From a virus, in IMG/VR virus record IMGVR_UViG_3300044623_000570, positions 1 to 28,099 of that record: 28,099 bases of DNA, one strand, 5' to 3'. Below, piece after piece: positions 3,156 to 21,075 of this stretch. The notes under the pieces were generated by a model. It was not told where the DNA came from and did not search any database. It saw only the letters and a list, made by a program, of their open reading frames with translations. The first letter of the stretch is position 1. Each line of letters opens with the position of its first letter. The position numbers were made by a program, and so were the translations under genes.

Positions 3156-3182
3156 AGCACTTCACTCCACTTGTTGTTATTT

Positions 3183-3749
3183 TTATTTATCTCTTCCTGT
3201 TCCTGCAGGCTTCTTTACAGGAACCTTAGTAACAGGTGCTTTATTAGGTATTACTTTTACATTGAGTTGTGGTTGTTGTGATAATGTGACAGCGGCCAAC
3301 TTCTCTTGTTTTTCCATCACGCGCGAACCAAACCAGAATGCGATAATGGTAGAGAATAGGGACATAGTGTCTGGATCCCATACAGCATCAAGCATAGTTG
3401 GGATATCTTGCCCCTGCTTGATCATCACATAGGCCGCAGACCACTTAACGGCCACGAAGAGAATAAAGAATGAATAGGTGATAACGGGTCTGATAGAAGC
3501 TCGTAATGCGTTGATAAACTTGCCACCATCAAGAGACTTATCATGATCAAGAGCTGATTGTCGAGACTCAGCGTCAGCCTTAATTTCCTCAATATGGTAC
3601 TGTATGTTTGCCTGCGTTGCAGCAGCATTGAGCTTGATTTCGGTAAGTTGTAACTCATACTTTAACTCCTGCTTACGTTCAAATATTCTCACAATGGAAG
3701 GCAGTAGACTTCCTAAAATTCCCAAAAAAGGTGCTAGTAATGCTAACAT
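3183..3749 (-). CDS. Holin, 3TM gene-transfer-agent type
   Basis: Forms inner-membrane lesions that release the endolysin. The 188 residues contain an N-terminal hydrophobic helix (2-20, ALLAPFLGILGSLLPSI), an amphipathic charged stretch with ADAESRQSALDHD, then the family-like core RASIRPVITYSFFILFVAVKW (TM2), a DPDTMSLFSTIIAFWFGSR segment (TM3) and EKQ. I assign this to the 'holin of 3TMs, for gene-transfer release' family, typical of alphaproteobacterial phages and GTAs. A basic Pro/Lys tail (about 165-188) is an addition. The gene overlaps its upstream neighbour by one base (TAATG). Confidence 0.85.
   Translation of the reverse strand: MLALLAPFLGILGSLLPSIVRIFERKQELKYELQLTEIKLNAAATQANIQYHIEEIKADAESRQSALDHDKSLDGGKFINALRASIRPVITYSFFILFVAVKWSAAYVMIKQGQDIPTMLDAVWDPDTMSLFSTIIAFWFGSRVMEKQEKLAAVTLSQQPQLNVKVIPNKAPVTKVPVKKPAGTGRDK
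3184..3191 (-). promoter_or_regulatory. T4-like late promoter motif GATAAATA
   Basis: GATAAATA on the minus strand overlaps the holin stop codon (AGA GAT AAA TAA) and lies 29 nt upstream of the next gene's ATG. It differs from the T4 late consensus TATAAATA only at the first base. The same variant occurs at 15428-15435. Confidence 0.55.
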
Positions 3750-4967: not shown

Positions 4968-5354
4968 CTATAGATTCCTTAGTCTGTTTCCAACAAATAT
5001 ATCTATACCAATATCGGCTGCATTATAATGATTACCATTAATACCATTTATATGTCTTGGCATAAAATTTAGAAACAGTAGAAAAGTTTTAAGTATGTCA
5101 AAGTCTTCCTTATCAATCTTAAAGAACAACATTCTCGCTGAGGATTCTATTCCAAATACATTTGATAGAACAATGATATGATTTAAAATCAATCTTTCCT
5201 TTAGCTCACCTGTAGTCTTATATCTTTTGATAAGTCTCTTGACATACTTAATTCTACTCAAGTCTTCTTCAAATTCACTCATCACACAATTAGGTCTATC
5301 GTAGGCTTTCATTGCGTAGATGATGAAGTTATCATCATTTAAGTTTTCAATCAT
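4968..5354 (-). CDS. Conserved T4-like phage protein of unknown function
   Basis: 128 residues, mostly helical and without low complexity: MIENLNDDNFIIYAMKAYDRPNC near the start, ERLILNHIIVLSNVFG around 73-88, and ARMLFFKIDKED after it. I associate the 'NLNDDNFxxYAMKxYD...RLILNHIIVLxNVFG' pattern with cyanophage and other T4-like genomes, where it is uncharacterised. The start overlaps the upstream stop by one base. No motif suggests an enzyme. Confidence 0.75.
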   Translation of the reverse strand: MIENLNDDNFIIYAMKAYDRPNCVMSEFEEDLSRIKYVKRLIKRYKTTGELKERLILNHIIVLSNVFGIESSARMLFFKIDKEDFDILKTFLLFLNFMPRHINGINGNHYNAADIGIDIFVGNRLRNL

Positions 5355-6211
5355 TATTTCTTTTTTGCCATACCCATCTTAGCTAGACGCTTTGTTATCT
5401 TCTTAATCTTTGACTTAGATTCTTTTTCTGGTGTTTTTGTTTCATCACCTTTAGAATCCCATGGCAAATCTTTTTCTTCTTTAAGCTTCTTCTCAGCTTT
5501 GTCGGCTCTCAACCATCTCTTAGCAAGATCATTTCTGCTCTTGTCTTCTTTCTTGGTCTTCTCAGAACCTTTTAGCTTTTCTTTAGCTCTCTTCTCATGA
5601 GTAGCTTCCCACTCTTGATCATGCTTCTTTTCAATTCTCTTCTTGATAGCTTTCATAGCTTCTTTTGATTTGCCACGAAGTTCATTAAGAGTTTCTTCAT
5701 TCAGACCATTATCAGCCTTATATGAATCAAATGAATCTTCAGCATCAGCTTCATCTCCATCTGTTGTTTCTCCATCTTCCATTTCAGATTCGATATCATC
5801 TAAAATTTCTTGGAGTTCACTCTCTTCCACGATCTCACAGAAGATATCAAATGAACCTCTATCATTCATTTGATACTCAAAGTATATGTAATATGGATCA
5901 TAGTTCTTTACAACTACTGTTCCATCATTTGTCATACCCATCTTGTTTCCAAATTGACTGATTGGAAACACTTCATGACCTGAATCCCCATCTAAGAAAT
6001 TTGTCTGAGGTGGAAATATGCTGAATGGTGCTAGAATCTTGCGAACCATTTCCATAGCATGGTATGGAGTCGCATGTGGTCTAGCTGTTACTGAGGCTAG
6101 ATGAATGTTGATGTTATCTCTAACAGGCCCATTATCTACTCCTACAAAGCCCTTCTCGGTCTGAGCATAGGGCATCATCTCTTCACTGAGGAAATCTTTA
6201 AATTTCTTCAT
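5354..6211 (-). CDS. Unknown phage protein with folded N-terminus and long charged tail
   Basis: 285 residues. About 1-140 looks folded, with a KPFxDFLSEE-like start (MKKFKDFLSEEMMPYAQ) seen in several T4-like phage head-region proteins. About 140-285 is extremely charged: an acidic block (EDGETTDGDEADAEDSFD) followed by many Lys/Glu repeats ending KRLAKMGMAKKK. This could be an internal or DNA-binding virion component; that is inference only. It directly follows the beta-rich virion-like gene (3-nt gap) and overlaps its downstream neighbour by one base. Confidence 0.7.
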   Translation of the reverse strand: MKKFKDFLSEEMMPYAQTEKGFVGVDNGPVRDNINIHLASVTARPHATPYHAMEMVRKILAPFSIFPPQTNFLDGDSGHEVFPISQFGNKMGMTNDGTVVVKNYDPYYIYFEYQMNDRGSFDIFCEIVEESELQEILDDIESEMEDGETTDGDEADAEDSFDSYKADNGLNEETLNELRGKSKEAMKAIKKRIEKKHDQEWEATHEKRAKEKLKGSEKTKKEDKSRNDLAKRWLRADKAEKKLKEEKDLPWDSKGDETKTPEKESKSKIKKITKRLAKMGMAKKK

Positions 6212-6751: not shown

Positions 6752-7220
6752 TTTTTTTCTCCTTGATTTCTTTTGTACTTGTGTTTTTGTTCATTGAACC
6801 TGTAGCCGAAGCTGTATTATCTGTTGGATTCACACTTACTGTTTCTGATTCTTTACCTTTTTTACCGGTATCAGTTGATCCTAAATCTGTTTCGACAGAT
6901 TCTTGTCTATTTTTCATAGATTGATTTCCGTGAGCTTGATACTTACTTCTATCAGATGGCAATTTTGAAACATTACCAATTGTCACTCTAGGATTATGCC
7001 TAGCACCAACACCTTGCTGACGAAATGGTAATTCCTCAGTCATTCTGTGCTTATAGTCGTTTGGTGATGTATTATCATTCTTGTTAGATGAATCAGGAAT
7101 ATGCTCAGGTTTAAACTTCTGTTTTTTAAGGTAAGCAGAAGTTTCGGCTTTCGGATCCTGTTCTTCTAATTTCTTCTTGCGAAGAGATTTGACCATCTCT
7201 GCCAATTGTTTGTTGTTCAT
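6735..7220 (-). CDS. Disordered hydrophilic phage protein
   Basis: 161 residues, very rich in Lys, Ser, Thr, Asn, Asp and Glu with almost no hydrophobic core, so probably intrinsically disordered. The N-terminus (MNNKQLAEMVKSLRKKKLEEQ) could form a short helix. The C-terminal KEKKNATMG reads into the next gene's start. It lies between the large repeat protein and the beta-rich virion-like protein, all overlapping by a few bases, suggesting co-translation. Function unknown. Confidence 0.6.
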   Translation of the reverse strand: MNNKQLAEMVKSLRKKKLEEQDPKAETSAYLKKQKFKPEHIPDSSNKNDNTSPNDYKHRMTEELPFRQQGVGARHNPRVTIGNVSKLPSDRSKYQAHGNQSMKNRQESVETDLGSTDTGKKGKESETVSVNPTDNTASATGSMNKNTSTKEIKEKKNATMG

Positions 7221-9211
7221 TACTTAACTCTTCCTGTTCCAACTGGCGCTTTCTTACCAACTACAGGTCTATTAGTAATAGTTTTGCCTGTCTTTGTACC
7301 AGATGTTACGCCACCAGGACCTTTAGTTGATCTACCGCTTGCTCCAATAGTATCATCTCTTTGATTTCTTGTTTGCAATCTAGACTTCACTGCTGATGCT
7401 GCTGGACTTGCTGCGACAGGTTTAGCTGATGTTGGTTTTGCTGTGACAGGTTTATCGGCAGAAGGTTTAGCTGAACCGCCTGAACTTCCTGAAGATCCTG
7501 TAGCAGGTGTTGCTCCAGCACTATCTGGACTATTTTTATTTGATAAACCATACATAGCGCCACCAACAGCAGTCGCAACTGCGGCTTTACCAAGTCTACC
7601 AAGTAATTTTGATTTGCCGGTTTGACTTGCAACTTTTGTAGCGGCACTACCAACTGTTGCTGGTAGTCCTGGTCTATTAGCAACAGCAGGAACGCCTGGC
7701 TTATTTGCTACAGCAGGAACGCCTGGTTTCTTTGTCACAGCAGGAACACCTGGACGAGTTACAGTAGCAGGCTCAGTTGTTTTTCTAACTGCTACGCCAC
7801 CTTTACTAGGACCATAGTTCTCACTGCCTTTTCTTGCCTTCGCTAGATTATCGCTAAATCTACCACCAGCAGTGCCTGGTTTATTATACTTTGAAACATT
7901 TGCTGCCGCTTTTGAAGCAGCACTACCACCTTCTTTAGCAGCTGGTGATACTGGTGTTGATTTTGCTTTTGAAATAAAGTTATCAACAGCAGTTGGTGCT
8001 TTTGCAGCAGCCGTAGAAGCGGGTTCTCTTGCTGCCTGAGATACAGCTTTTGTAGACGAAGGAAGTGTTTTTGTAGTTGCTGCTACTGTATCATCTGCGC
8101 TTTTTTGAATTAGTTTTTTTGCACCGTATTTAACACCTGATTTTGCTAATCCAGCAACACCTGCAACTGTAGCTATATCGTCAGCAGCTTTACCTATTTT
8201 TGTTGCTGTAGGATTATTAAGTTCTGCTCTTTTAGATTTTTCTTTTTCTTGTTCCAACTCTTTTGCGTATGTTGTGCCTTGGCCTATACCAAGTTTAGCA
8301 CCCACATTCTTTACAGCATAGTCGCCTGCCGCAGCAACATAATCTCCACCCATACCTTGTGCAAATTTACGAACACCAGCATCGACTGCACCAATAGCGT
8401 TACTTACTTTTGTTCCAATAGAACTTGGTGCTACTGCTGGTTCTCTTGCAAGTCTAGCATTGGTTGAGTTTATGTCTTTTACAATATTTCCTCGCGCTTT
8501 TTGATCTGCAGGAGAAAAACTAACTCTTTCATTAAGCTGATCCGCCACGACCTGTCCTTCAACAGAAGCAGTTACGCTCGAATCATGACGGTCATTAAAA
8601 CCCTCGTTATTACTTTCACACATAGAAGCTTTCTTAGCTTCCTTGATGCTCTGAATCTTCTTTGTTAAAGCTGCCTTTTGATCCGATGTGATTTCTGTTG
8701 CCTTTGGTTTAGGTACTGTTGTTACGGTACCGCTGCCAGTAACTGTATCTCCAGGAATTGCCTTACTTGGATCACCCTCTTCGCTTACTGGAACGCAATT
8801 AGGAACTGGTTTGCCGCCCTTCTTCTTCATTCCAACCATCTTATAGTTTTTCCAGCATGGATCATCACCCTTCATCTTCTTTTCTGCTTCTTCAAGTTCA
8901 CCAGCAGCAGCTTTCTTTTTGTGTGTGCCTGCTCTGGCATGAGCTAGATCGTTTCCAGTAAATCCTGGTTTACCATCAAGATTAGCAAATTGCTTTTTGC
9001 TCATTTTAATTTTTTCATCAAGTGCTTCTACACCTTCGGTTAATACAGACTTATAAGCAGCATCCCACTCGCCCTGACGTTCGTGTGGAAGGACTCTACG
9101 GTCTTGAATACCAAACTTTTCGTTAACTGCCTTTATAGCATCACGATCAGCCTGGTTACTCTGCATAACCTGCTGAATAGCATCAATTAGTGGATCTTTC
9201 TTGTTAAGCAT
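7220..9211 (-). CDS. Large Ala/Gly/Lys-rich low-complexity phage protein
   Basis: 663 residues. About 1-100 is ordered (MLNKKDPLIDAIQQVMQSN, then QGEWDAAYKSVLTEGVEALDEKIKMSKKQFANLDG). GDDPCWKNYKMVGMKKKGG near residue 115 is a motif I recognise in other T4-like phage virion or processing proteins. The rest is Ala/Lys/Pro/Thr/Ser-rich and likely disordered, with a hydrophobic Ala/Gly patch near 545-560. Four 9-residue PGVPAV repeats occur (DNA 7649-7756). The tail is basic (VVGKKAPVGTGRVK). It may be an internal head or scaffold-like protein; function not established. Confidence 0.65.
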   Translation of the reverse strand: MLNKKDPLIDAIQQVMQSNQADRDAIKAVNEKFGIQDRRVLPHERQGEWDAAYKSVLTEGVEALDEKIKMSKKQFANLDGKPGFTGNDLAHARAGTHKKKAAAGELEEAEKKMKGDDPCWKNYKMVGMKKKGGKPVPNCVPVSEEGDPSKAIPGDTVTGSGTVTTVPKPKATEITSDQKAALTKKIQSIKEAKKASMCESNNEGFNDRHDSSVTASVEGQVVADQLNERVSFSPADQKARGNIVKDINSTNARLAREPAVAPSSIGTKVSNAIGAVDAGVRKFAQGMGGDYVAAAGDYAVKNVGAKLGIGQGTTYAKELEQEKEKSKRAELNNPTATKIGKAADDIATVAGVAGLAKSGVKYGAKKLIQKSADDTVAATTKTLPSSTKAVSQAAREPASTAAAKAPTAVDNFISKAKSTPVSPAAKEGGSAASKAAANVSKYNKPGTAGGRFSDNLAKARKGSENYGPSKGGVAVRKTTEPATVTRPGVPAVTKKPGVPAVANKPGVPAVANRPGLPATVGSAATKVASQTGKSKLLGRLGKAAVATAVGGAMYGLSNKNSPDSAGATPATGSSGSSGGSAKPSADKPVTAKPTSAKPVAASPAASAVKSRLQTRNQRDDTIGASGRSTKGPGGVTSGTKTGKTITNRPVVGKKAPVGTGRVK
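7649..7756 (-). repeat. Four tandem 27-bp repeats encoding (R/K)PGVPAVxx
   Basis: Inside the 663-residue gene, a 27-bp unit repeats four times, giving RPGVPAVTK, KPGVPAVAN, KPGVPAVAN and RPGLPATVG. The core acagcaggaacgcctgg is exact at 7683-7699 and 7710-7726 and nearly exact at 7737-7753. It is a coding minisatellite and probably varies in copy number. Confidence 0.85.
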
Positions 9212-9251: not shown

Positions 9252-12200
9252 TTATTCTTCGCAGTTCCAACGTCTAAGCGACATAGCCTTTCGTGTTGGT
9301 CTGCCTTTTTCGTCTTTCATTGGGCCAGGCATACCGCCCATTCTTGCACAAAATGACTTACGGCGTTTGGCAGCTTTACCATCAGGATCTAACTTTGATG
9401 GTGGTGTTGTAACTGCTGTTTTAATACCAAATTTCTTTGCGCCTTTTCTTGTTAGACCTGCACCACTTTCGGTTGATCTGTAATAACCTTTTGAATCTGC
9501 ACCGCGTTCATTAAGTTCTTTTGATTCCTCTTTCATAGCCTGTGCTGTAGCAATACTAAACTTCTTTTCGTCAGAATATTCAGGATTTTCTCTTTTTATA
9601 GCATCGGCAATTTCATTTCTTTTTTTAATTTGGGCTTTAGACATAGCTTCTGCAATAGATGCTTTGATTGGAGTAACTGGTTCTTTTTCATCCATCAAAG
9701 CAGCATGTTTCTTTTCTTGTGTAGAACGGAAATCAATCTTCTTCTTATATGCTTTCAATGATAGTTCGGTTACGGAAGTTACAGAATTTCTATCATCTTT
9801 ATTTTGATTATTGATTGAACTCAGATCGTCGTAACCTAAACCAAAACCTTCTTTCATTTTCTTAAGAGACTTTGGCTTCGTATGATCACAACCACAACCA
9901 GCAGCCTCAAGTCTTAGAGCGGCCTCGATCAACTTTTGTTCAGCAAGATTACCATACTTTTCAGCAAACTTTTGTTGTGTCTTTGGACTTAATGCCCACT
10001 CTTGAATGGACTTTGATGCTTCATATACAGAATTGCCGATATTACCAAATCCAGTCACAAGTGCTGGTGATACCTGAATGCCATACTCTGGACCAAGACC
10101 GCCACTCTTAGGTAAACCAAACTTACCGCGTGGAATAACATTATCTTCTGCCACTTCTTGACCTGGCGTCATCTTCTTATAAATCTTCGCAAGACTATCT
10201 GTACCAATTTCACGATTAGCTGGTTTCTTCATGTAACTTTCGAAGCTTGTATCTATTGTTTCGGCAAGTTTACGCTTGATTTTTTTCTCTATTCTATTGT
10301 GCTTCTTATATTCTTTTTCTTGATCAATATTCTCGCGACCTTCGTTCATGTTTTGAACCCTTACTAGTTTGCCACCTTTACTGTGGTATAATACCTTGTT
10401 TTCGTTTCCTACTTTACGACCAAATCTACCAAATCCATAGTATGATAGTCCAAGCTTTCTTGCTTGTGCCATCAGCTCATTATCTGGCTTATGAATAACA
10501 TTTGGAACATTTTGACGAACCTGTGTGAGAGTTTTAGTTGCTCTTGGTTCTTGATATGTGATGCCGCGCTTCTGTGCTTCCTTTTCAATCCACGCCTTTG
10601 CTGCTGGATTTTGATTATCAGCGCGAACAAACTGTTGTGCCATGCGACGAACACGATTGAAGTTTGTTTGAATCTTTTCTTTTTCTTCAGGAGATACTTT
10701 ACGAATGTCAGCGGTGTTATCTACTACTGTAAAGTTCTTATTGCCGAATATCTTCTGTAGTTCACCGATATTCTTCTGTGCTAAATCCCACTTCTCTTGA
10801 CGGATATCGGAAGAGTTATCTGGCATACCTTGCTTGTCTGTGCCATCTGGAACTTTACGCTTACCCATCTTACCGCGTTCAACATTACGCTCACGCGAAA
10901 CTTCATTAGAAGTGTTTACGAATACCATCATAGTTTCGTAACCGTCAGCCTCAAGATTCCTCTTAACTGTCTTAATCTTTTCTAAATCGTCTGCGGTGCC
11001 ATTAATGATAAGCCCTAGACGACCTGAAAGAGCTAGTCTTTCTTGTTCTTTGGTAATGTTCTTCGCGCGACCGCGAACAATATCACGCTCGACTCTTTCT
11101 TCATCAGGCATTTCAAGATCAAGACCATTCTTCTGCATTAGATATTCAAAAGCAACATCCGAATTGACTTCTCTTAGCCCTTCACCACGAAGAACTGAAT
11201 TCATTACAAAGTCTTTACCGGAACCTGGGCCGCCCGCTAAGAAGATAGCCTTGAGTTTGCCTGGATCATTGATACCTTCTTGAAGATTCTTTTTTAGATA
11301 TTCTTTTCTTGATTCTTCATCTTTCCATTCACCCTCATCAGTGTCTAAGACTTGAGTTGAATTCGAAGCCTGCATCTTCTTTGTGTCTGCGATGTTTTGT
11401 GTTAGATAGTTAGAAACAACTGTAGGCGATACTTGCCCTGTAACATATCCCATACCTCTTATATCACCACCAGAAGCATGATTTGCAGCGTGATCTTCTA
11501 CAACATAACCTTGCTTGAACATATCTGGATTAGACTTTGCAAACCAGCGCATGATCTTACCTGCTTCTAAGTTTGCTTCGTTCTCAATATCGGATCCAGT
11601 AGAACCTTCCTTAGCAATATCTTTACCTAGTTTTCCATCTTCATTCTGCTTATGATGTACAAGTTCATGTGCAACAGAACGGAATATATCCATAGGGTGC
11701 CTATTCATAGTAGACACTGATAGTTCATTAGATGATGGATTGTATGCTGCGAATGAATTGTATCCGTCTTTATCGGTCTTATATCTAAGATTAGGCATAG
11801 ACTTTAGACCAAGTTTATCAGACGCAAAAGACACGAAAGAGTCCAGCATTGGTGCTAGTTCTTTGCGTGTCACTTCTTCGTTTAGGGAATGATGTTTGCG
11901 GATTTGTGTGAAAACTTTGCGAACATGACTATCAGGCATACCAGGATGATATGCTTTAAAATGATCGTAGTTGCCATCTTTAGCCAGTTTTTCAAGCTTA
12001 GACGCTGATACAGAACTGGTTAGTTCTGCGCGACTCATCTTGCGAGGATCTTTATTACTCTCTGTTCGTTCACCACCAGCAGCATGTACTTGCCAGCTTT
12101 TGAAATGAAATGGGACGTTACCTTTTTTATCTTTATTACCATTGTACTTTTGTAGGAAACTTTTGTATTCCTCAACACGGTCTGAACCCGCGACAAGGTG

Positions 12201-12473
12201 TAAATGATCATGATGTTTATTGAGATGGGATAAGAAGGCAGGTAAAGTCTTGGTATGCTCGGTGCCCGTATCTACAGGGTGAGCGAATACTTTTTCTGCG
12301 TGGGATTTCTTGGTTTTGATATCAAGTGGTTCGGCTGTACCCGAAAGACCTATTGAAAGTTTACCACCAGTCTTGGTTGCTATATCTTTTGCTTGATCAA
12401 TAGCTGCTTTGTGACCGATGGTAGGTATGCGTACTTTGCCATAAAAGGCAACGCCAGTGGTTTTCTTTTTCAT
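9252..12473 (-). CDS. Giant fusion: nucleotidyltransferase, HExxH protease, P-loop kinase, basic DUF6321-like tail
   Basis: 1073 residues. Residues 1-180 resemble the NMNAT/cytidylyltransferase fold: GVAFYGKVRIPTIGHKAAI has the TxGH nucleotide site (H21), with SVSASKLEKLAKDG (154-167) in place of the ISSTxIR motif. Residues about 205-310 carry SVAHELVHHKQ (H269, E270, H273) and a downstream IENEAN Glu, a zinc metalloprotease pattern. Residues 408-600 contain a Walker A GGPGSGKD (414-421), VNSD, and an Arg-rich lid (SRERNVERGK), like polynucleotide/zeta-type kinases. The last 60 residues (RRKSFCARMGGMPGPMKDEKG) match a tail motif seen in other phage proteins. It follows the HAD and ligase-like genes, suggesting nucleic-acid repair. 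Expression is probably late-gated by a hairpin at 12480-12507. Domain calls are motif-based. Confidence 0.8.
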   Translation of the reverse strand: MKKKTTGVAFYGKVRIPTIGHKAAIDQAKDIATKTGGKLSIGLSGTAEPLDIKTKKSHAEKVFAHPVDTGTEHTKTLPAFLSHLNKHHDHLHLVAGSDRVEEYKSFLQKYNGNKDKKGNVPFHFKSWQVHAAGGERTESNKDPRKMSRAELTSSVSASKLEKLAKDGNYDHFKAYHPGMPDSHVRKVFTQIRKHHSLNEEVTRKELAPMLDSFVSFASDKLGLKSMPNLRYKTDKDGYNSFAAYNPSSNELSVSTMNRHPMDIFRSVAHELVHHKQNEDGKLGKDIAKEGSTGSDIENEANLEAGKIMRWFAKSNPDMFKQGYVVEDHAANHASGGDIRGMGYVTGQVSPTVVSNYLTQNIADTKKMQASNSTQVLDTDEGEWKDEESRKEYLKKNLQEGINDPGKLKAIFLAGGPGSGKDFVMNSVLRGEGLREVNSDVAFEYLMQKNGLDLEMPDEERVERDIVRGRAKNITKEQERLALSGRLGLIINGTADDLEKIKTVKRNLEADGYETMMVFVNTSNEVSRERNVERGKMGKRKVPDGTDKQGMPDNSSDIRQEKWDLAQKNIGELQKIFGNKNFTVVDNTADIRKVSPEEKEKIQTNFNRVRRMAQQFVRADNQNPAAKAWIEKEAQKRGITYQEPRATKTLTQVRQNVPNVIHKPDNELMAQARKLGLSYYGFGRFGRKVGNENKVLYHSKGGKLVRVQNMNEGRENIDQEKEYKKHNRIEKKIKRKLAETIDTSFESYMKKPANREIGTDSLAKIYKKMTPGQEVAEDNVIPRGKFGLPKSGGLGPEYGIQVSPALVTGFGNIGNSVYEASKSIQEWALSPKTQQKFAEKYGNLAEQKLIEAALRLEAAGCGCDHTKPKSLKKMKEGFGLGYDDLSSINNQNKDDRNSVTSVTELSLKAYKKKIDFRSTQEKKHAALMDEKEPVTPIKASIAEAMSKAQIKKRNEIADAIKRENPEYSDEKKFSIATAQAMKEESKELNERGADSKGYYRSTESGAGLTRKGAKKFGIKTAVTTPPSKLDPDGKAAKRRKSFCARMGGMPGPMKDEKGRPTRKAMSLRRWNCEE

Positions 12474-12479
12474 TATTTC

Positions 12480-12515
12480 CCTCTATAGGAACGTTAATCT
12501 ATAGAGGTATTTAGT
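12480..12515 (-). promoter_or_regulatory. SD-sequestering hairpin overlapped by late-promoter motif
   Basis: A perfect 9-bp stem (CCTCTATAG/CTATAGAGG, 12499-12507 and 12480-12488, 10-nt loop) holds the GAGG Shine-Dalgarno of the 1073-residue gene in its 3' arm, 6 nt before ATG 12473. ACTAAATA (12515-12508) abuts the 5' arm. Transcription from it would start about 6 nt later, inside the arm, leaving only about 4 bp of stem. Confidence 0.6.
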
Positions 12516-12520
12516 AAACT

Positions 12521-13207
12521 TTAACTTTCGTAGAGCTTACGTACTATTGTCGATTTCGCAACAGAAATGACGCTTTCAGCTATCGCTTTCTTTGGTAGAT
12601 ATTTTGATACCTTGCCGTTTTTTACGAGATATCCAATAGCTTCTACACCAGGATACATTGCGGCCACCTTGTATAGCATATCCAGATTCTTCTCATGATC
12701 ATCCCACATACGAATCCTATCCCACTTACCAGAGGCAAGATACTTCTTTATGATAACGCCCTTATTGATATGTGCTGGTGAGCTTGGCTTTAACTTAGAT
12801 AGGTTGCCAGAACGCTCAACATAGACATGATCAATAGGAAATCCATGATCACGAAAGGCTTCTAGAAACTCTTTATGGTCATCGAAGTCTGCTCTGGCAG
12901 TAATGATGATAGAGTGAGAGTTTTCAGACTGATTCATTACGATACTTTTGGCTCTATCTAGAACATTGCTGATTGGCTTGAATGTATCACGAAAGATTTT
13001 ACCGGAACGAAACTGAGAAAAATCCAACTCTTCACCTTGACCTAGCTTATAGGTGTTATACTCACCCGCTGAAAGAGATTTGATTACTTTGCCGTTTTTC
13101 TTTATGTCTACTTTTGCGGATGTTTTGCCTAAAGTGTCATCAATGTCCCACACATTCAAGGTGCGAACTTCATTTTTATGCTCTCTTAAATAATCACTCA
13201 GTTTCAT
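12521..13207 (-). CDS. HAD-superfamily phosphatase
   Basis: Likely hydrolyses a phosphomonoester; in this setting perhaps a nucleic-acid 3' or 5' phosphate. Start chosen at ATG 13207, in ATGA overlap with the upstream gene (a TTG 9 nt earlier is less likely), giving 228 residues. HAD motif I is NVWDIDDTLG (nucleophile D21, acid D23). Motif II is in HSIIITARAD, motif III Lys in NKGVIIKKYL, and motif IV in RMWDDHEKNLDML. Coupling to the ligase-like gene upstream and the kinase fusion downstream suggests an end-healing role, by analogy with T4 Pnkp, whose phosphatase is also HAD-type. Substrate unproven. Confidence 0.85.
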   Translation of the reverse strand: MKLSDYLREHKNEVRTLNVWDIDDTLGKTSAKVDIKKNGKVIKSLSAGEYNTYKLGQGEELDFSQFRSGKIFRDTFKPISNVLDRAKSIVMNQSENSHSIIITARADFDDHKEFLEAFRDHGFPIDHVYVERSGNLSKLKPSSPAHINKGVIIKKYLASGKWDRIRMWDDHEKNLDMLYKVAAMYPGVEAIGYLVKNGKVSKYLPKKAIAESVISVAKSTIVRKLYES

Positions 13208-14442
13208 TTGGACCAATTCTTTGTGGCGTTGAAGTTTGCTTGTGAGAATTCTAAACGATCTATCAGTTTGACTGCTTTGCCAATCTTATCAATGGCAACA
13301 AATCCTTCTGGAGATGTTACCTTTAATCCAGTGGCATCTGTTCTAAGATATGTTCCGACAGCATCCTGTACCTGTTGGAGTTTCTTTACTATCATATTTT
13401 TAGCACGAACGAGCAAGTTTTGCAAGTCAAAAATCTTCTTTAACTCATTTTTATTTGACTTATAAAAATTCATAACGATATTTTTTTCCATTTGACGTTT
13501 CTGCTTTGTGTCTGCTTTCTTAGCCTCTATAATAGACTTGTTAAGCTTTTCTTCCACAGTAGAAATAAGTCCAGCTACATGTTGTGATGTATTCGTAATT
13601 TCTTTTCCTTCACGGACTTTCAAATTATTCCACGCTTTGATTGTAATTTTATAGGTATCATTTACCGCAATCTCATTCAAAACTCTGGCAGGTATTGTTC
13701 TGAACAATGAGCCTGCTTGAGACAAAATCGAAGTTAGTTCATCTGTTTCCTGCTTCGTGAATGTAGCAGTTCCTGTGGCATCAACAAAAGAAGCATCACG
13801 ATACCAAACGTTTCTCGATTGCTTGAATTTACCAATGTCAGCACCAAAAGATGCCTGCATATCTTCCATTGTATTTCCATTATATGTTGTGTGCCAAACA
13901 ACACCTAACTTAGCTGACTTTATAGACTGAGCAAGTTTACTATCGTTTGGTACAGCGTAGACTATTGTGTTTGGTTGAAAAGTAACATAAGATTTGCCTT
14001 CAATCGTTTCAATCTTTAAGTCTTCAGAGGTAAACATCATATCGCCCTGCATTACTCCATTGATTCCAAGTTCAGGCAAGTATCTAAGAGCCACTTTGAG
14101 CTTTGCGTTTAGACCTGATGCTGGATAACTAGCATCAATATCGGCTGAAGTATAATTGAGTTTAGCATTCTTAGCGAACACTCCTTTGGTACCAACAAAG
14201 AACTTACCGTTCTCCGGATTGATACCAGCAAAGATGGCAGGTGCGCCATCCCATTTCGTTGTTAAGTTAACACTTCTACCAGTAGCATGACCAGCGAGCA
14301 TATCACGAAGAGACTGTAGAAAGGATATCGCACCTCTTGTGCCAGAAACTCCTCCATTGAGTACTTCGTCCTCCAAGTGTTCTAAGTGAAGGTTCTTACC
14401 TTCTTTTGATTCTGTTATATAGTCTTGATAATTTAACATCAT
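13204..14442 (-). CDS. Putative nucleic-acid ligase-like nucleotidyltransferase (DUF6267-like)
   Basis: 412 residues. I see an ordered motif set of covalent nucleotidyltransferases: TTKWDGAPAIF (motif I, KxDG, K63 as candidate nucleophile), GVMQGDMMF (about 126-134, motif III-like), SPEGFVAID (E379, motif IV-like) and AVKLIDR (K392, motif V-like). A helical basic region (about 290-365) separates them. I recall such phage proteins annotated as DUF6267, of unknown function. It overlaps both neighbours by 4 nt (ATGA) and sits with HAD phosphatase and kinase genes, supporting nucleic-acid sealing. The spacing III-IV is long, so it may be divergent or inactive. Activity is inference. Confidence 0.7.
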   Translation of the reverse strand: MMLNYQDYITESKEGKNLHLEHLEDEVLNGGVSGTRGAISFLQSLRDMLAGHATGRSVNLTTKWDGAPAIFAGINPENGKFFVGTKGVFAKNAKLNYTSADIDASYPASGLNAKLKVALRYLPELGINGVMQGDMMFTSEDLKIETIEGKSYVTFQPNTIVYAVPNDSKLAQSIKSAKLGVVWHTTYNGNTMEDMQASFGADIGKFKQSRNVWYRDASFVDATGTATFTKQETDELTSILSQAGSLFRTIPARVLNEIAVNDTYKITIKAWNNLKVREGKEITNTSQHVAGLISTVEEKLNKSIIEAKKADTKQKRQMEKNIVMNFYKSNKNELKKIFDLQNLLVRAKNMIVKKLQQVQDAVGTYLRTDATGLKVTSPEGFVAIDKIGKAVKLIDRLEFSQANFNATKNWSK

Positions 14443-15404
14443 GGTTGGAATCCAAGTTTGTCTAATTTTAATCTGCCAGAACTGCTTCTTCTTTCAACGC
14501 CCTGCTTTGATCTAAGTTTTGCTTTCTTTTGTGCTGTTCTAGGATTATCTATTGAAAAAGAAAGTTTGCCCTTACTACTCAAATCAAATTTTAAAAACAA
14601 AACATTACCTTCTGTTACATCAACAAAAAGGTCATGGTAACTTGAATCATTTTCAGATTGTTGAACTAGAAGCTTTTCAAATATAAAATTGATCATTGTG
14701 CCTGATACTTCTTCGGTATCTTCGTATTTTTTTGCCGCTGTAGGATCTGATTTTATAAGACTCATTATAGATTTTGGTACATTTTTTAGAATCACATCAT
14801 TCTGATTCAATTGATTGATTACACCAGTATATTCGCTTTGAGTGACCTTAACAAGTTTTGGATAGTGTTTTGCTATTGCGCTAATTGGTCCTGATACGAC
14901 ATTTTTTGTATTCAGTATTTCAAACACTTTAAAATATTTTGTTTTTGCCCATTTATCTGACAGGGTTTTATTTGTTCTTACTAATCTAACAACATCTCCA
15001 GGTTTAAGAGTATTTGTTCCACCTTTTTTCTGCTTGTTCGAAACTAAAATTTCTTCTTTGCCTCTATAAACTTTGAAGTCATAGAGTGCTTCCGTATCCG
15101 ATGTTGAAAAGTATGTGTGATCACTTGGTTTAAGTCCACTAATAAGCCTATTTTCTTGGCACCAAATAGGACCCATGACTTCAGCAAAGAAGTTTTTTAT
15201 ATCGCTTATCTCGGCAGTATTCAATTTACTTATGTCTACAACGCTTCCATTTGCTGCATTCATAATATTCAAACATACATCAGCAACGTTTTTCTGTCTC
15301 GTTTTTGTTTTCGACATTGCTGTAAGTTTTGTTATTACTTTTTTTTTGTGTAGGGATATTGTGTTTTTTGTGCCCACAACGCCCATTTGAGATGGTTTCA
15401 ACAT
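14439..15404 (-). CDS. Unknown phage protein, possible nuclease-like core
   Basis: 321 residues. The N-terminus is basic (KKKVITKLTAMSKTKTRQ). Around 105-140, TSDTEALYDFKVYRGKEEILVSNKQKKGGTNTLKPGD could be a D...xxK strand-turn-strand reminiscent of PD-(D/E)xK nucleases, but the pattern is weak (S instead of E before NK). The C-terminus is basic (RTAQKKAKLRSKQGVERRSSSGRLKLDK). It is first in the ligase-like/HAD/fusion operon, with a GATAAATA late motif 24 nt upstream and AGGA before the ATG. Function unknown; membership of the repair-like cluster is by position. Confidence 0.65.
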   Translation of the reverse strand: MLKPSQMGVVGTKNTISLHKKKVITKLTAMSKTKTRQKNVADVCLNIMNAANGSVVDISKLNTAEISDIKNFFAEVMGPIWCQENRLISGLKPSDHTYFSTSDTEALYDFKVYRGKEEILVSNKQKKGGTNTLKPGDVVRLVRTNKTLSDKWAKTKYFKVFEILNTKNVVSGPISAIAKHYPKLVKVTQSEYTGVINQLNQNDVILKNVPKSIMSLIKSDPTAAKKYEDTEEVSGTMINFIFEKLLVQQSENDSSYHDLFVDVTEGNVLFLKFDLSSKGKLSFSIDNPRTAQKKAKLRSKQGVERRSSSGRLKLDKLGFQP

Positions 15405-16439: not shown

Positions 16440-16529
16440 TGGCGGAAGGTGAGGGATTCGAACCCTCGGTACCGATTAAGGTACGTCTCGTTAGCAGTGA
16501 GGTGCCTTAGACCACTCGGCCAACCTTCC
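16440..16529 (-). tRNA. tRNA-Ser(GCT)
   Basis: Class II cloverleaf with GGAAGGT/ACCTTCC acceptor, anticodon stem CTCA and loop CTGCTAA (GCT), long variable arm, T-arm with TTCGAAT, discriminator G, encoded CCA. It lies between the L,D-transpeptidase stop (1-nt gap) and the Dps late promoter. Confidence 0.95.
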
Positions 16530-16530
16530 A

Positions 16531-16956
16531 TTATTCTATTACACGTATATATGTATTCTCTTTGCCACTTTCATCTATTAGGCGATATAACCAACGAGCA
16601 TTCTTTAGTTCAAGTCTAACACAACCGTGAGAGGCTGGTGATCCAAGACGCTCAACTTCACCAGTCGCATGAATGGCGTATCCTTCGTGGAAAAAGATTG
16701 ACCAAGGCATCGGCGCATTATCATACTTCTTGCTATAGTGGAGTCTCTTAAGTAGATACGGACGATATTCTCCAGACGGCGTATTGTATCCTTTTCGACC
16801 CGTAGAAATTGGCCATTCATATGTATCGGTTAAAGTTTCAACATACATTGTTTGATCCGACTTATCAATCGTAATGAATACTTCCGCTTTAGCTCCGACA
16901 ACCAACATAAAGATTGCGAAGATAACAACACAAATCATAACGAAAAATCTTGCCAT
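16531..16956 (-). CDS. L,D-transpeptidase (YkuD domain), membrane-anchored or secreted
   Basis: L,D-transpeptidases form 3-3 cross-links or attach proteins to peptidoglycan. The ATG at 16956 gives 141 residues (an upstream TTG is less likely; GGAG lies 11 nt before the ATG). Residues 2-24 (ARFFVMICVVIFAIFMLVVGAKA) are a signal peptide or anchor. The YkuD site is complete: IHA (H96) and SPASHGCVRL (H110, C112, R114). TYEWPISTGRKGYNTPSG matches the substrate-side region. In a phage it may remodel the host wall, for instance against lysis or superinfection; that role is inference. It overlaps nothing, and follows the FlbD-like gene by 1 nt. Confidence 0.92.
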   Translation of the reverse strand: MARFFVMICVVIFAIFMLVVGAKAEVFITIDKSDQTMYVETLTDTYEWPISTGRKGYNTPSGEYRPYLLKRLHYSKKYDNAPMPWSIFFHEGYAIHATGEVERLGSPASHGCVRLELKNARWLYRLIDESGKENTYIRVIE

Positions 16957-16957
16957 T

Positions 16958-17155
16958 TTAGACTGCTTCTCCAATCAACTTCATTACTTCACCAAGACTT
17001 TCTTCGACTGACCATGTAACATTCTCTGCATGGACTTGAGTCAAAAGACTGCCTCCTTCAACATGATCCTCATATACCACCTTGATATGATTTACATTGA
17101 TATATAGAGGATCACCTTTTCGTTCTGGTACCATATTAGTCAAACGAATAAACAT
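16958..17155 (-). CDS. Small FlbD-like protein
   Basis: 65 residues: MFIRLTNMV, then YINVNHIKVVYED, TQVHAENVTWSVEESLGEVMKLI. The pattern 'I.L.......G.P.YIN...I......HVEGG..' followed by 'V.ESL.EV...I' resembles the small FlbD/YlzI family encoded near flagellar genes, but those functions are unclear. It shares the A of TAATG with the DUF458 gene and is probably co-translated with it. Confidence 0.65.
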   Translation of the reverse strand: MFIRLTNMVPERKGDPLYINVNHIKVVYEDHVEGGSLLTQVHAENVTWSVEESLGEVMKLIGEAV

Positions 17156-17649
17156 TATGCTACTTCCTTCTTAGCATTCCAAATTGCGTCATTGAACCGA
17201 TCAGCACAGTATGAAGCTGCCCAAGCATTAGGCTTGACCAAAGGTATGATGTTACACATACCGCGAATGTAACCAACAGCTTCGTTTATAACACATGAAG
17301 AACCATGCTTTGAATCTGGATTGATATCAAGATGGATTTCAACCACACGATCTTCCAGAGCTTCTTCAAGGTCTATGTATAGCTGCGCGGTCTTCATTAC
17401 TTCATTCATGAGACGCATACGCGGCTTGTCCTTCTGCTGGTCATAGTCGCGCTCACGCACAATACCACCAAACACCTTACAACCGTTCTTGCCGTTCTTG
17501 TGAACAACTACCACATTGATGTAGTCGGCATGCCACACGCCATCGATCTGAAAGCGTTCTGAGTCGCCGCCCAGATATACCTTTGTCTCAGGAGACTGAG
17601 CGTTGATGAATGCCTTAACTTCTTCTAAGTTTAATGCTTTGCGTATCAT
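17155..17649 (-). CDS. DUF458 (YkuK-like) RNase H-fold protein
   Basis: Start at ATG 17649 (AGGA 9 nt upstream), giving 164 residues; a TTG further upstream is inside the methyltransferase stop region. The family pattern is visible: VYLGGDSERF (D29 likely metal ligand), a beta-strand NVVVVHKNGKNG, R.RDY, MRLMNEVMKTAQLY, then VEIHLDINPDSKHGSS and a C-terminal VKPNAWAASYCADRF. YkuK-type proteins have an RNase H-like fold, so nucleic-acid cleavage or resolution is possible; function is not established for the family. It sits between methyltransferase and FlbD-like genes. Confidence 0.8.
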   Translation of the reverse strand: MIRKALNLEEVKAFINAQSPETKVYLGGDSERFQIDGVWHADYINVVVVHKNGKNGCKVFGGIVRERDYDQQKDKPRMRLMNEVMKTAQLYIDLEEALEDRVVEIHLDINPDSKHGSSCVINEAVGYIRGMCNIIPLVKPNAWAASYCADRFNDAIWNAKKEVA

Positions 17650-17653
17650 TTTT

Positions 17654-18313
17654 TTATTCCTGTTTACTTGCAACCTCAGTGAAAGGTTCTACTTTTCTTT
17701 TTTCAAAAACGACAATGCTGTTATAGAATGAAACCGAATAAAGATCATTGAATACAACAAGAGCTTCGTTTGGAATCTTATCGCTTTCGATATGTTTTTG
17801 GTTTACGATATCGGTAACGGCCTGAGAATGTGATAAGAAGGTGTCGTTTCTGCCGTAACCACCACCCCACCTCTGCCAATAACTGGTGTGAGTGTCTTCG
17901 CAAAGATATACACCATTATCTTTTAGATGAGGAAATGTTTGTTGTAATGTAATAATCTGGTGCGACATGATATGACTACCATCGTCAATGATAATATCAA
18001 ACTCAGGATGCCTTGAAAGAAGACTCTGCCAGAACGGAACAGAAGATTGATCACCCATTACAATTTCAGCATTACCATCATACTTGTATGACAGACAATC
18101 AGGATTGATATCAACACCAACGACCTGTGTGCCTTCACCAAAATACTTTAACCAAAGTTCAATTGAACCTCCGCCTAGAATACCAATCTCTAGGATCTTA
18201 GGTGCTTTGCCAACAAATTTGGAGAAGTGATGTTCATATACATCAAAATAAGAATTCCATTTAATGGATCTGCGTTCAAGAGAGTTGAACAAGTCAAGAA
18301 TTTTATTCATCAT
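17654..18313 (-). CDS. SAM-dependent methyltransferase (CmcI/MycE-like class I)
   Basis: 219 residues. Class I Rossmann motifs: ILEIGILGGGS (40-50, SAM-binding loop), VVGVDINPD (64-72, acidic ribose ligand), and EFDIIIDDGSHIMSHQ (104-118), a metal/substrate motif shared with CmcI and MycE-type small-molecule or sugar O-methyltransferases. Hence an O-methyltransferase acting on a carbohydrate or metabolite is more likely than a DNA methylase; substrate unknown. AGGAAC precedes the ATG. It lies directly after the tRNA-Thr(TGT) gene and may be cargo of the tRNA region. Confidence 0.85.
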   Translation of the reverse strand: MMNKILDLFNSLERRSIKWNSYFDVYEHHFSKFVGKAPKILEIGILGGGSIELWLKYFGEGTQVVGVDINPDCLSYKYDGNAEIVMGDQSSVPFWQSLLSRHPEFDIIIDDGSHIMSHQIITLQQTFPHLKDNGVYLCEDTHTSYWQRWGGGYGRNDTFLSHSQAVTDIVNQKHIESDKIPNEALVVFNDLYSVSFYNSIVVFEKRKVEPFTEVASKQE

Positions 18314-18326
18314 TAAGTTCCTAAAA

Positions 18327-18400
18327 TGGTGCCCGCTGAGAGAATCGAACTCCCAACCTCGGATTACAAAACCGATGTTATACCACTTAACTAAGCGGGC
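18327..18400 (-). tRNA. tRNA-Thr(TGT)
   Basis: GCCCGCT/AGCGGGC acceptor, loop TTTGTAA (anticodon TGT), T-loop TTCGATT, discriminator A, encoded CCA. The 31-39 pair is T-T. Confidence 0.95.
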
Positions 18401-18406
18401 GTTATC

Positions 18407-18480
18407 TGGTGCCTCTAACAGGTATCGATCCTGTGTCTCGGCTTTACCAAAGCCGTGTACTACCTTTATACTATAGAGGC
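18407..18480 (-). tRNA. tRNA-Thr(GGT)
   Basis: GCCTCTA/TAGAGGC acceptor, stem CGGCT/AGCCG with loop TTGGTAA (GGT), discriminator A and encoded CCA. Six bases from the other tRNA-Thr gene. Confidence 0.93.
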
Positions 18481-18485
18481 TTTGT

Positions 18486-18570
18486 TGGTGCGGGTAGAGA
18501 GACTTGAACTCCCATGGATTACTCCGCTGGAACCTAAATCCAGTGCGTCTGCCAATTTCGCCATACCCGC
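18486..18570 (-). tRNA. tRNA-Leu(TAG)
   Basis: Class II with long variable arm, GCGGGTA/TACCCGC acceptor, anticodon stem CTGGA/TCCAG, loop TTTAGGT (TAG), T-loop TTCAAGT, encoded CCA. Confidence 0.94.
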
Positions 18571-18584
18571 ATTATTTTTAATAT

Positions 18585-19292
18585 TTAGTTCTCAATCTTT
18601 AAATTGAGTTTAGTTTTATGATCGTAAGGGCACTTAGAGCCATCAGGATACAGACCCCTAAAATATTGCTTTTGCCATTCATCAGGTCCACGTTGAGGAT
18701 TCTTATTGAACTCGTCTCTTCTAGATCCCCATTCAGAATATTGTTTTTCTAGTTCGGGATCATCTCTTAGATTTTTTGTCTCTATAGAAAAAGATTCGAT
18801 CAGATTTCTTTGAATAGGAAATACAAAGCAGAATGGCTCATCTTCTTCAAATACAACACGCCGATTTGCTTCCGTAAATTTCCAGTTCATTGTAAAAGAA
18901 TATGGAGCCCAATCTGCTTCGTATATACCTGTAAGTGGCACAATACTATTTTTTGAAGTGTTAGGAGGACCTGAAATGTATAAATTGTATCCTTCCGGCA
19001 ATTTAAAAAGATAATCAATACTGAAAGTTAATATTCCATTTCCAAAATGACTTCCTGCCATCTGTGATGAAGATTCAATTTTTACACCATCTATTTCATT
19101 AATACCATTCCACTCAGCACAAACTCTTTCTTTTAAAGAAAATGTCCAGCCATGTTGATTGGCTATTACAAGAGGAAGACACCTATATGCAAATCTATTG
19201 TTCTCTCCCATCCATCTTCGTTCTTTTGAAGCCACTTTAATTGGAGTGCGCGATTCCTCATTAAAGACTTTATATAGCGTAATTTTGTTCAC
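18585..19292 (-). CDS. DUF6065 family protein
   Basis: 235 residues from a GTG start (GAGG 6 nt upstream). Conserved-looking blocks: RRWMGENNRFAYRCLPLVIANQHGW (26-50), HFGNGILTFSIDYLF, YISGPPNTSK near 105 and DWAPYSFTMNWKFTEA near 130, which match my memory of DUF6065. That family occurs in scattered bacteria, sometimes near secondary-metabolism genes, with no proven activity. The C-terminus is polar. It stands alone between tRNA-Leu and tRNA-Val genes, beginning 17 nt after the latter's CCA, so it looks like cargo of the tRNA array. Confidence 0.8.
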   Translation of the reverse strand: MNKITLYKVFNEESRTPIKVASKERRWMGENNRFAYRCLPLVIANQHGWTFSLKERVCAEWNGINEIDGVKIESSSQMAGSHFGNGILTFSIDYLFKLPEGYNLYISGPPNTSKNSIVPLTGIYEADWAPYSFTMNWKFTEANRRVVFEEDEPFCFVFPIQRNLIESFSIETKNLRDDPELEKQYSEWGSRRDEFNKNPQRGPDEWQKQYFRGLYPDGSKCPYDHKTKLNLKIEN

Positions 19293-19308
19293 AGTAACCT
19301 CAAAAAAA

Positions 19309-19383
19309 TGGTAGCCGTTGAGAGGGTCGAACTCCCGACATCCTCGGTGTAAACGAGGCGCTCTCCCACTGAGCTAAACGGCC
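19309..19383 (-). tRNA. tRNA-Val(TAC)
   Basis: GGCCGTT/AACGGCT acceptor (1G-72U), stem CCTCG/CGAGG, loop TTTACAC (TAC), discriminator A, encoded CCA. Its first 10 bases also encode the last codons and stop of the heme-oxygenase-like gene. Confidence 0.95.
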
Positions 19384-19871
19384 TTAATTTCATCCATAAT
19401 CTTTAGAAGAGCATGAAAACAGTTTTTAGATTCTTCTACTATGTCTTCACGTTCTCTAAACTTATTAAGTTCCACAATTGCTGCTTTTCTATCATCCCAT
19501 TCAAGATGAGTTGTAGGATAGCCAACAAGTCTTCTACGCATAATCTCACCACCCATTAGATGAGCACCTGTAAGAACATATGCTGCGCCAGCAATATCTT
19601 TTTCCGTTATTAAGGAACTGGTGTATTTGTTAGCAGCACGTATTATATTAGCAGAACAGTTAGTGGCTGTCAAGTCATTTTGAACTCTTTCCGTTCTATG
19701 AATGACTTCTGGAATATGTTGATCAACTTCCCAGTGTATAGTATAAAGAGCGGAAAGCCAGTCGGCATACCATTTCATAGGTGGACTACCACTTGCCATA
19801 GCTGCACCAACAGGATGCGCTTCACAAGCATGGTGTAAGTCTCTAGTCGCTTCCCATAATGGTCCAGGCAT
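19374..19871 (-). CDS. Heme oxygenase-like protein
   Basis: 165 residues, all-helical in look. The start LWEATRDLHHACEAHPVG resembles the heme oxygenase proximal helix (His13/14 as candidate heme ligand). GAAYVLTGAHLMGGEIMRRRL (95-115) matches the distal kinked glycine helix of the fold. Such enzymes open heme to biliverdin, releasing iron and CO; cyanophages encode versions for bilin synthesis, but no bilin reductase is seen here. Heme iron release near a Dps gene is an attractive but unproven link. AGGAG precedes the ATG. The final codons and TAG overlap tRNA-Val by 10 nt. Confidence 0.75.
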   Translation of the reverse strand: MPGPLWEATRDLHHACEAHPVGAAMASGSPPMKWYADWLSALYTIHWEVDQHIPEVIHRTERVQNDLTATNCSANIIRAANKYTSSLITEKDIAGAAYVLTGAHLMGGEIMRRRLVGYPTTHLEWDDRKAAIVELNKFREREDIVEESKNCFHALLKIMDEIKAV

Positions 19872-19884
19872 TTATGCTCCTACT

Positions 19885-20211
19885 GATTAATAAGGTGAGG
19901 TGGGATTCGGGTACACCCACAAGTCACGGCCCAGATACCTGTTCAAACGCGACAGCCTAGATTTTCTTGGTCGGAAACGATACATCTTCTACTCTCGTAG
20001 ATCATGCACGGGCACCACACCATCTAGCCAAGTTAGCTGGTCTTTGCGTCCAGCCATTTCCTTGCACTCGACCGATTCCCGTCGGAATCGGCATTTAAAT
20101 TGGAGGCCCGTTAGCGGTTACTGCGATCAGTGATTCCTTATGGAAGGGTCAAGGCAGGAACTTACACCCCGAGGATTTATATACCGTCACGGGCCAACGA
20201 CGGTTCTTTAT
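19885..20211 (-). other. 327-bp GC-rich gap: no intact gene, strong hairpins
   Basis: I find no tRNA or intact gene. Minus-strand hairpins include CCGATTCC-GACG-GGAATCGG, TCTAC-GAGA-GTAGA (GNRA loop), GCTGG...CCAGC and CCGTC...GACGG. One minus frame stays open apart from a single TAG: a segment with KEMAGRKDQLTWLDG, then the stop, then MYRFRPRKSRL ending with TAA at the heme-oxygenase leader. It may be a structured RNA or a broken small gene. Confidence 0.5.
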
Positions 20212-20385
20212 TTACATTCCAGAAATTAGTGAAGATACTGAATCGTGAACCCAGACCCACCAAGCAGCAGCAGCGGCTACGATAGCAGCGCCACCCTTCT
20301 TAAGATCCCAGCCATTCTGCCACATTTCCCAGAGAACCCAGAGAACAGCCACGACTAGAACTAATACAACGAGTGTGTTTAGCAT
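20212..20385 (-). CDS. 57-residue double-TM small membrane protein
   Basis: An ORF with GAGG 9 nt before the ATG. The protein has two hydrophobic stretches, residues 3-19 (NTLVVLVLVVAVLWVLW) and 32-47 (GAAIVAAAAAWWVWV), separated by a short charged turn (WDLKKGG). Both ends are polar. It resembles phage small membrane proteins (holin-like or inhibitor), but no family is recognised. An ACTAAATA late-like motif (20424-20431) lies 39 nt upstream, by the CCA of tRNA-Met. Confidence 0.7.
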   Translation of the reverse strand: MLNTLVVLVLVVAVLWVLWEMWQNGWDLKKGGAAIVAAAAAWWVWVHDSVSSLISGM

Positions 20386-20423
20386 GTTAATACCTCATTA
20401 TTCGACCTTGATTGGCCGTGAAG

Positions 20424-20431
20424 TATTTAGT
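20424..20431 (-). promoter_or_regulatory. Late-promoter-like ACTAAATA
   Basis: Same octamer as the one before the 1073-residue gene (12508-12515), here between tRNA-Met(CAT) and the 57-residue membrane protein gene. Confidence 0.4.
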
Positions 20432-20432
20432 T

Positions 20433-20508
20433 TGGTGCGTCTGCCGAGTTTCGAACTTGGTTGTCCGGCTTATGAGACCGGTGAGATTGCCAACACCTCC
20501 CCAGACGC
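20433..20508 (-). tRNA. tRNA-Met(CAT), elongator-like
   Basis: GCGTCTG/CAGACGC acceptor, loop CTCATAA, T-loop TTCGAAA, encoded CCA. The paired 1-72 position argues against an initiator; a lysidine-modified Ile role cannot be excluded. Confidence 0.92.
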
Positions 20509-20517
20509 TTAGTGTGA

Positions 20518-20967: not shown

Positions 20968-20999
20968 TTCAAATTCCTTTATTTGATTTCATAATATAT

Positions 21000-21075
21000 T
21001 GGTGCTGCCTCTCTGAATCGAACAGAGTCCCCACGCTCTTCAGGCGTATGTACGCACCAGCTATACCAAGGCAGC
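21000..21075 (-). tRNA. tRNA-Phe(GAA)
   Basis: GCTGCCT/AGGCAGC acceptor, stem TACGC/GCGTG, loop CTGAAGA (GAA), T-loop TTCGATT, discriminator A, encoded CCA. Confidence 0.93.

Follow-up and report, generated by a model that had tools for sequence, protein, structure and literature searches.

In this work we analyse a three-gene cassette at positions 9,252 to 14,442 of IMG/VR record IMGVR_UViG_3300044623_000570, a fragment of an aquatic T4-like phage; the window is the whole stretch analysed, 28,099 bases long. Judged by the 412-amino-acid product of the cassette, the closest isolates are Methylophilales phage Melnitz, phage C48C1, Stenotrophomonas phage DLP6, Pelagibacter phage HTVC008M and many cyanophages. 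The three open reading frames all lie on the minus strand, at 13204-14442 (412 amino acids), 12521-13216 (231 amino acids, TTG start) and 9252-12473 (1073 amino acids). Reading along the coding strand, the order is a tRNA array, a gene of 321 amino acids, the 412-amino-acid gene, a HAD phosphatase gene and the 1073-amino-acid gene. Gene ends overlap at 14439/14442 and 13204/13216, so that these genes are coupled. A first-pass annotation had described ligase-like, HAD, P-loop and TIGH motifs in three coupled genes and had read them as a possible set for tRNA repair or protection; the genes, their coordinates and their motifs were confirmed.

The 412-amino-acid protein belongs to DUF6267 (PF19782), which it matches over residues 17-408 with an E-value of 1.7e-112 and 376.9 bits, against a curated cut-off of 27. 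It also matches phrog_455, and the family appears in cyanophage annotation as T4-GC 71. DUF6267 is a family previously without a described function; a literature search returned nothing naming it, and an earlier mention in a 2016 RNA-repair survey (doi 10.1093/nar/gkw722) is possible. One collection has 467 phage records with a match, and the family is spread over marine cyanophages, pelagiphages and OM43 phages. In an alignment of 91 relatives the ligase-type motifs I, III, IV and V stand in canonical order, on or beside predicted core strands. Motif I, KWDG (K63, 14245-14256), is invariant, as is the motif III-like QGD on a predicted strand (residues 132-134, 14041-14049); E, G and V are invariant in motif IV, EGFV (379-382, 13297-13308), and in the motif V-like KLID (392-395, 13258-13269) K392 is invariant, with L and D nearly so. 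Invariance at K63-W-D-G, Q132-G-D, E379-G, V382 and K392 goes well beyond chance. Histidine, glutamate and aspartate residues N-terminal to KxDG are conserved as well, and in a compact member of the family, gp87 of S-CREM2, motif I reads KIDG.

The AlphaFold2 model of the protein (predicted local distance difference test score 82) has what looks like a nucleotidyltransferase core, split by a helical insert at about residues 230-356, which compact members such as gp87 lack. In structural comparison with VIA-align, RNA ligases head the list, with Z scores of 7.5 for NgrRnl, 7.0 for REL1, 6.2 for T4 Rnl2 and 6.1 for T4 Rnl1; the top 50 rows are nearly all ligases, many of them DNA ligases. The predicted fold supports, and does not refute, the ligase-like assignment proposed earlier. 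The chain stops about 20 residues past K392, and therefore carries no C-terminal OB domain of the kind found in DNA ligases. The protein gave no Pfam match to Rnl1 (PF09511) or Rnl2 (PF09414), a PDB sequence-profile search was uninformative, and an NCBIfam scan of two window proteins returned nothing. From motifs and model together, DUF6267 appears to be a new family of KxDG, candidate covalent nucleotidyltransferases with a fold closest to RNA ligases, most likely a sealing enzyme.

The HAD protein (12521-13216) contains all four HAD motifs, and 18 relatives share D24, D26, T106, K152, D172 and D173 without exception; the aspartate of DIDDT is D24 counted from the TTG and D21 counted from an internal ATG. 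It matches phrog_415, polynucleotide kinase, with an E-value of 1e-6. The best structural match of its model is the 3'-phosphatase of T4 Pnkp (Z 12.6), with Pnkp1 of the bacterial Pnkp1/Rnl/Hen1 complex (4xru) at Z 12.2, while PDB sequence-profile searches were uninformative.

In the 1073-amino-acid protein (9252-12473) a HIGH-superfamily (TIGH) nucleotidyltransferase, an HExxH domain, a P-loop kinase and a DUF6321 module are fused. The nucleotidyltransferase (11886-12473), NMNAT/cytidylyltransferase-like and divergent in this lineage, matches phrog_3041, cytidyltransferase, with an E-value of 3.9e-25; its GH and G-D-R motifs are kept in 32 aligned sequences, it weakly resembles nicotinate nucleotide adenylyltransferases, and a PDB sequence-profile search was uninformative. 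The HExxH domain (residues about 197-335, 11469-11885) occurs in the window's lineage only. The kinase domain (residues about 397-640, 10554-11285; Walker A GGPGSGKD) matches Pfam AAA_33 and Zeta_toxin above the cut-off and gave no NadR-type match. Aligned with hhalign, its profile matches the kinase of T4 Pnkp (probability 78.7, E-value 1.7e-5, about 150 columns including the RN..R..VP segment), and it also aligns with zeta toxin and PSTK; entries that we take to be CthPnkp appear in its PDB profile list. The G-x-G-K of the P-loop, D46 and arginine residues are invariant in 25 kinases. Directly N-terminal of the domain (about 11267-11285) stands an (L/I)xE-G sequence whose E and G are invariant in the same 25; cleavage there by the prohead protease could split the fusion protein. 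The C-terminal DUF6321 module (9267-9464) was recognised by Pfam with an E-value of 2.1e-15. Basic, Cys-flanked small modules (of the DUF6321 type and CWKNYKMVGMKKKGGKPVPNC) recur across several different proteins of these phages; in the window they are found at 9267-9464 and in a 663-amino-acid protein at 7220-9211.

The N-terminus of the window's DUF6267 protein, MMLNYQDYITE|S (14410-14442), is a predicted capsid-targeting sequence of the T4 IPII/IPIII type, which is new here and had escaped the first-pass annotation. In T4 internal proteins, positions 4 and 7 of this sequence, both hydrophobic, serve targeting, and positions 8 and 10 allow processing by gp21 (PMC9026906). We defined the tag as a start followed, within the first residues, by [FY]xx[FYM][LIMV]xE. 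This pattern is specific: in T4 it picks 2 of 438 open reading frames, namely IPII and IPIII, and in S-CREM2 it picks 3 of about 700, a SAM hydrolase, an APH/ChoK-like kinase and a cytidylyltransferase, the last being the nucleotidyltransferase of the cassette. All three S-CREM2 enzymes are among the 52 virion proteins detected by mass spectrometry (PMC10665884, Table 3). The GC190 cytidylyltransferase of S-SM1 also bears the tag and was likewise detected in virions (PMC3037559). Internal control stretches match the pattern in 0.14% of cases. Around DUF6267 it was found in 91 of 157 DUF6267 proteins, 17 of 53 stand-alone nucleotidyltransferases and 8 of 31 kinases, versus 48 of 1074 other open reading frames, an enrichment whose P values overstate the case because the sequences are related.

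DUF6267 proteins of heterotroph phages, the window's included, begin with the T4-type sequence, and in tagged members it immediately precedes a KNxHLEHLED core. Most untagged members begin at that core, as in cyanophages, or retain a degenerate tag, and residues 1-17 have low confidence in the model; the tag therefore looks like a separate module. Five of the 12 related contigs encode a gp21-type prohead protease (PF03420), among them the contigs of L041 and L050, both close to the window's phage; the window, being a fragment, cannot show the gene. The HAD protein of the window begins with a degenerate, tag-like MKLSDYLREH. Two candidates were set aside: an apparent tag match in S-SM1 (46068-46478), which needs an unlikely upstream start, and the presence of DUF6267 in S-CREM2 virions, as gp87 is untagged and is not among the listed virion proteins (PMC10665884), which fits the tag reading.

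Other proteins with the tag pattern were noted. In the window, a 285-amino-acid protein on the minus strand (5354-6211) begins MKKFKDFLSE|E. Melnitz (L001) carries the pattern on a RimK-like ATP-grasp protein (82-1131), a modifier that may be injected too, and on the gene before DUF6267 (12203-13288). Close downstream of DUF6267 in loci L084 (2002-5640) and L082 (1767-4511), three to four tagged proteins with similar N-termini (MKRFKEYLNE..., MKSFKQYITE...) and of unassigned function stand in tandem. A Cas9-like nuclease of S-CREM2 (OR473000, 7704-10546), listed by its authors among the virion proteins detected by mass spectrometry, lacks a strict tag; gp13 next to it, likewise detected, begins with the near-tag MKDLHSFLTE.

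Composition of the cassette was compared among related loci. The HAD, nucleotidyltransferase, HExxH and kinase domains all follow DUF6267 in 21 of the 21 close relatives with enough DNA, which bears out the expectation that the genes co-occur. At larger distance the nucleotidyltransferase accompanies DUF6267 in 41 of 49 loci and is present in 12 of 13 genomes, and the two are fused in L129, L142 and S-PM2. DUF6267 and the nucleotidyltransferase are thus a near-universal pair of marine T4-like phages, and the nucleotidyltransferase, earlier called an unexplained addition, goes with DUF6267 more constantly than any other partner. The kinase was found in 5 of the 13 genomes, all non-cyanophage. 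In the distant locus L108 an adenylate-kinase-like gene (2954-3538) adjoins the Pnkp-like kinase, both lying between DUF6267 and the nucleotidyltransferase, and L104, L134 and L149 are similar.

The tRNA array of the window (16440-27092, minus strand) was predicted by ARAGORN to hold 29 tRNAs of all 20 isotypes, 25 of which exceed the Rfam gathering score; a manA RNA element (RF01745) lies within it at 19892-20089. An array adjoins the cassette in 11 of the 12 loci of the window's lineage that have the HAD gene and upstream DNA. Among about 21 other loci tRNAs are adjacent in 3, two of them single tRNAs, and the DUF6267-nucleotidyltransferase pair is present in hundreds of phages with no such array nearby. 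Since the adjacency is confined mainly to one lineage, it perhaps reflects one event. A general tie between the cassette and tRNA arrays was dropped, and the earlier tRNA-specific reading found no support; tRNA repair is still a plausible reading.

Our preferred reading, to which we give about even odds, is a kit for healing and sealing nucleic-acid ends, part of which is packaged in the capsid and injected. Domain identities by motif and predicted fold, co-occurrence and the specificity of the tag in T4 and S-CREM2 are shown here, and catalysis, substrate, any preference for RNA, packaging of DUF6267 itself and the benefit early in infection are inferred. DUF6267 would most likely seal 5'-phosphate to 3'-OH ends via a lysyl-nucleotide intermediate on K63. 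Preparing 3' ends would fall to the HAD protein, in the role that the phosphatase half has in T4 Pnkp, and the P-loop domain of the 1073-amino-acid protein would be the counterpart of the 5' kinase half of Pnkp, while the HIGH-type nucleotidyltransferase, probably NMNAT-like, may supply or recycle a nucleotide cofactor. The capsid-targeting sequence of DUF6267 would be cut at (L/I)xE by the prohead protease, and the enzyme loaded into the head and injected; in relatives, the nucleotidyltransferase, kinase or HAD protein also carry the tag. Being injected, DUF6267 would act at the start of infection, and the kit may then deal with breaks inflicted by the host on tRNA, other RNA or incoming DNA. 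The wider proposal, that marine T4-like phages package a new-family ligase with end-healing and NMNAT-like partners via T4-style tags, and that after injection repair precedes phage gene expression, is more tentative, and we would place it a little below even.

Several results weigh against this interpretation. The best VIA-align score of DUF6267 is under 8, too low to stand alone; Foldseek alone gave no significant match for the model; and hhalign yielded no significant alignment to T4 Rnl1 or Rnl2, whether single sequences or family profiles were used, and scored no better than decoys. The Rnl1 match does fall on motifs IV-V (EGFVAI/EGYVAV), yet decoys score alike. The ligase call therefore draws on motifs and predicted fold. 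For the HAD protein, the rival matches Lem4, lipin and AphA lie within about 1.5 Z of T4 Pnkp; the gene is absent from isolates and nearly restricted to the window's lineage, and is a lineage-specific addition to the cassette. The kinase is absent from the cyanophages among the 13 genomes searched, and in the window's lineage its Walker A motif reads GKD instead of GK[ST], losing the Ser/Thr, which may weaken or change catalysis. Of the set proposed by the first-pass annotation, a Pnkp-like HAD phosphatase and a Pnkp-related P-loop kinase domain are supported, and the lineage restriction and the GKD motif are corrections to it. Neither the HAD nor the 1073-amino-acid protein of the window has a strict tag, and no virion proteome was found for any phage with a tagged DUF6267.

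The distribution of ligases invites another reading: the replicative DNA ligase that marine T4-like phages seem to be missing would be DUF6267, which would join Okazaki fragments instead of gp30, with replication or nucleotide-pool genes as its neighbours. T4 has gp30, Rnl1 and Rnl2 and lacks DUF6267. In the 13 DUF6267 phage genomes searched we found no Rnl1, Rnl2 or NAD+ (nicotinamide adenine dinucleotide) DNA ligase, and an ATP DNA ligase in DLP6 only, the other 12 having no other recognisable ligase; on either reading DUF6267 is therefore the best available ligase candidate there, and the absence of a recognised RNA ligase from all 13 favours the end-healing and sealing kit. Homologues of gp30 were not found in cyanomyoviruses, an absence posed as a question in a 2010 review, according to which distant ones might exist (PMC2984593), and cyanophage DUF6267 sits between the gp41 helicase and the gp61 primase/nrdA. 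Nevertheless, we consider a replicative role unlikely: the chain has no OB domain past motif V, DLP6 has a DNA ligase alongside DUF6267, a capsid tag such as DUF6267 bears in heterotroph phages ill suits a replisome enzyme, and host ligase may suffice.

The constancy of the nucleotidyltransferase, its occasional fusion to DUF6267 and its weak resemblance to nicotinate nucleotide adenylyltransferases would also fit an injected module of NAD+ homeostasis, in which it and the kinase rebuild NAD+ in NadR fashion, with DUF6267 as an enzyme that uses NAD+ or transfers nucleotides to a protein or small molecule. Phage NadR-type fusions are on record (PMC7824862, PMC9503650), and the conserved residues preceding KxDG agree with such a role. 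This too seems improbable to us, as the kinase is of the Pnkp/PSTK/zeta group and not of the NadR kinase family, cyanophages keep the pair without a kinase, and the Pnkp-like HAD protein would be left unexplained. Finally, the divergent nucleotidyltransferase, the GKD P-loop and the attached small modules of unassigned function (DUF6321, DUF5824) might suggest that these proteins serve inside the head as structural components or inhibitors, having enzyme folds but catalysing little or nothing; the invariance of catalytic-type residues of DUF6267 and HAD across highly diverged relatives makes this very unlikely.

Compared with known systems, the proposed end-healing and sealing kit has the same three predicted activities as T4 Pnkp (pseT) and Rnl1 (gene 63), namely 3' phosphatase, 5' kinase and KxDG ligase, its HAD protein being related to Pnkp structurally and its kinase by profile. 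It differs in that two genes encode the kinase and the phosphatase (9252-12473 and 12521-13216), which Pnkp joins in one chain, that DUF6267 is not of the Rnl1 family by Pfam or hhalign, and that nucleotidyltransferase and HExxH domains and predicted capsid packaging are added. With the bacterial Pnkp1/Rnl/Hen1 complex it shares a Pnkp phosphatase-type HAD (4xru) and an RNA-ligase-like partner, whereas no Hen1 methyltransferase was seen, the ligase family is another one and the genes form a phage operon. IPI, IPII, IPIII and Alt of T4 likewise bear at the N-terminus a short capsid-targeting sequence, cleaved at a site of the (L/I)xE type, and Alt sets a precedent for enzyme injection (PMC9026906); their cargo comprises inhibitors or an ADP-ribosyltransferase, and here it would be a ligase-like enzyme, nucleotidyltransferases and kinases. 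Phage NadR/NadM salvage of NAD+ has in common with the kit a nucleotidyltransferase of the HIGH superfamily, sometimes joined to a P-loop kinase in one protein, but the kinase here is of the Pnkp/zeta/PSTK group and the constant partner is DUF6267, not NadV.

Upstream of DUF6267, the coupled gene of 321 amino acids (14439-15404, minus strand) has relatives in the same position in several phages. Their alignment shows conserved E75, D109 and S122xK124, which weakly suggests a PD-(D/E)XK-like nuclease of an SxK variant; a PDB sequence-profile search gave no match.

We know of no earlier case of a packaged nucleic-acid sealing enzyme, and DUF6267 would be the first. The capsid tag offers an explanation for cytidylyltransferases detected in virions, for which earlier authors had not excluded contamination. 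If DUF6267 is a ligase, it would answer the question raised in 2010 of why cyanomyoviruses seem ligase-less (PMC2984593), and the tag rule would predict which enzymes T4-like phages inject.

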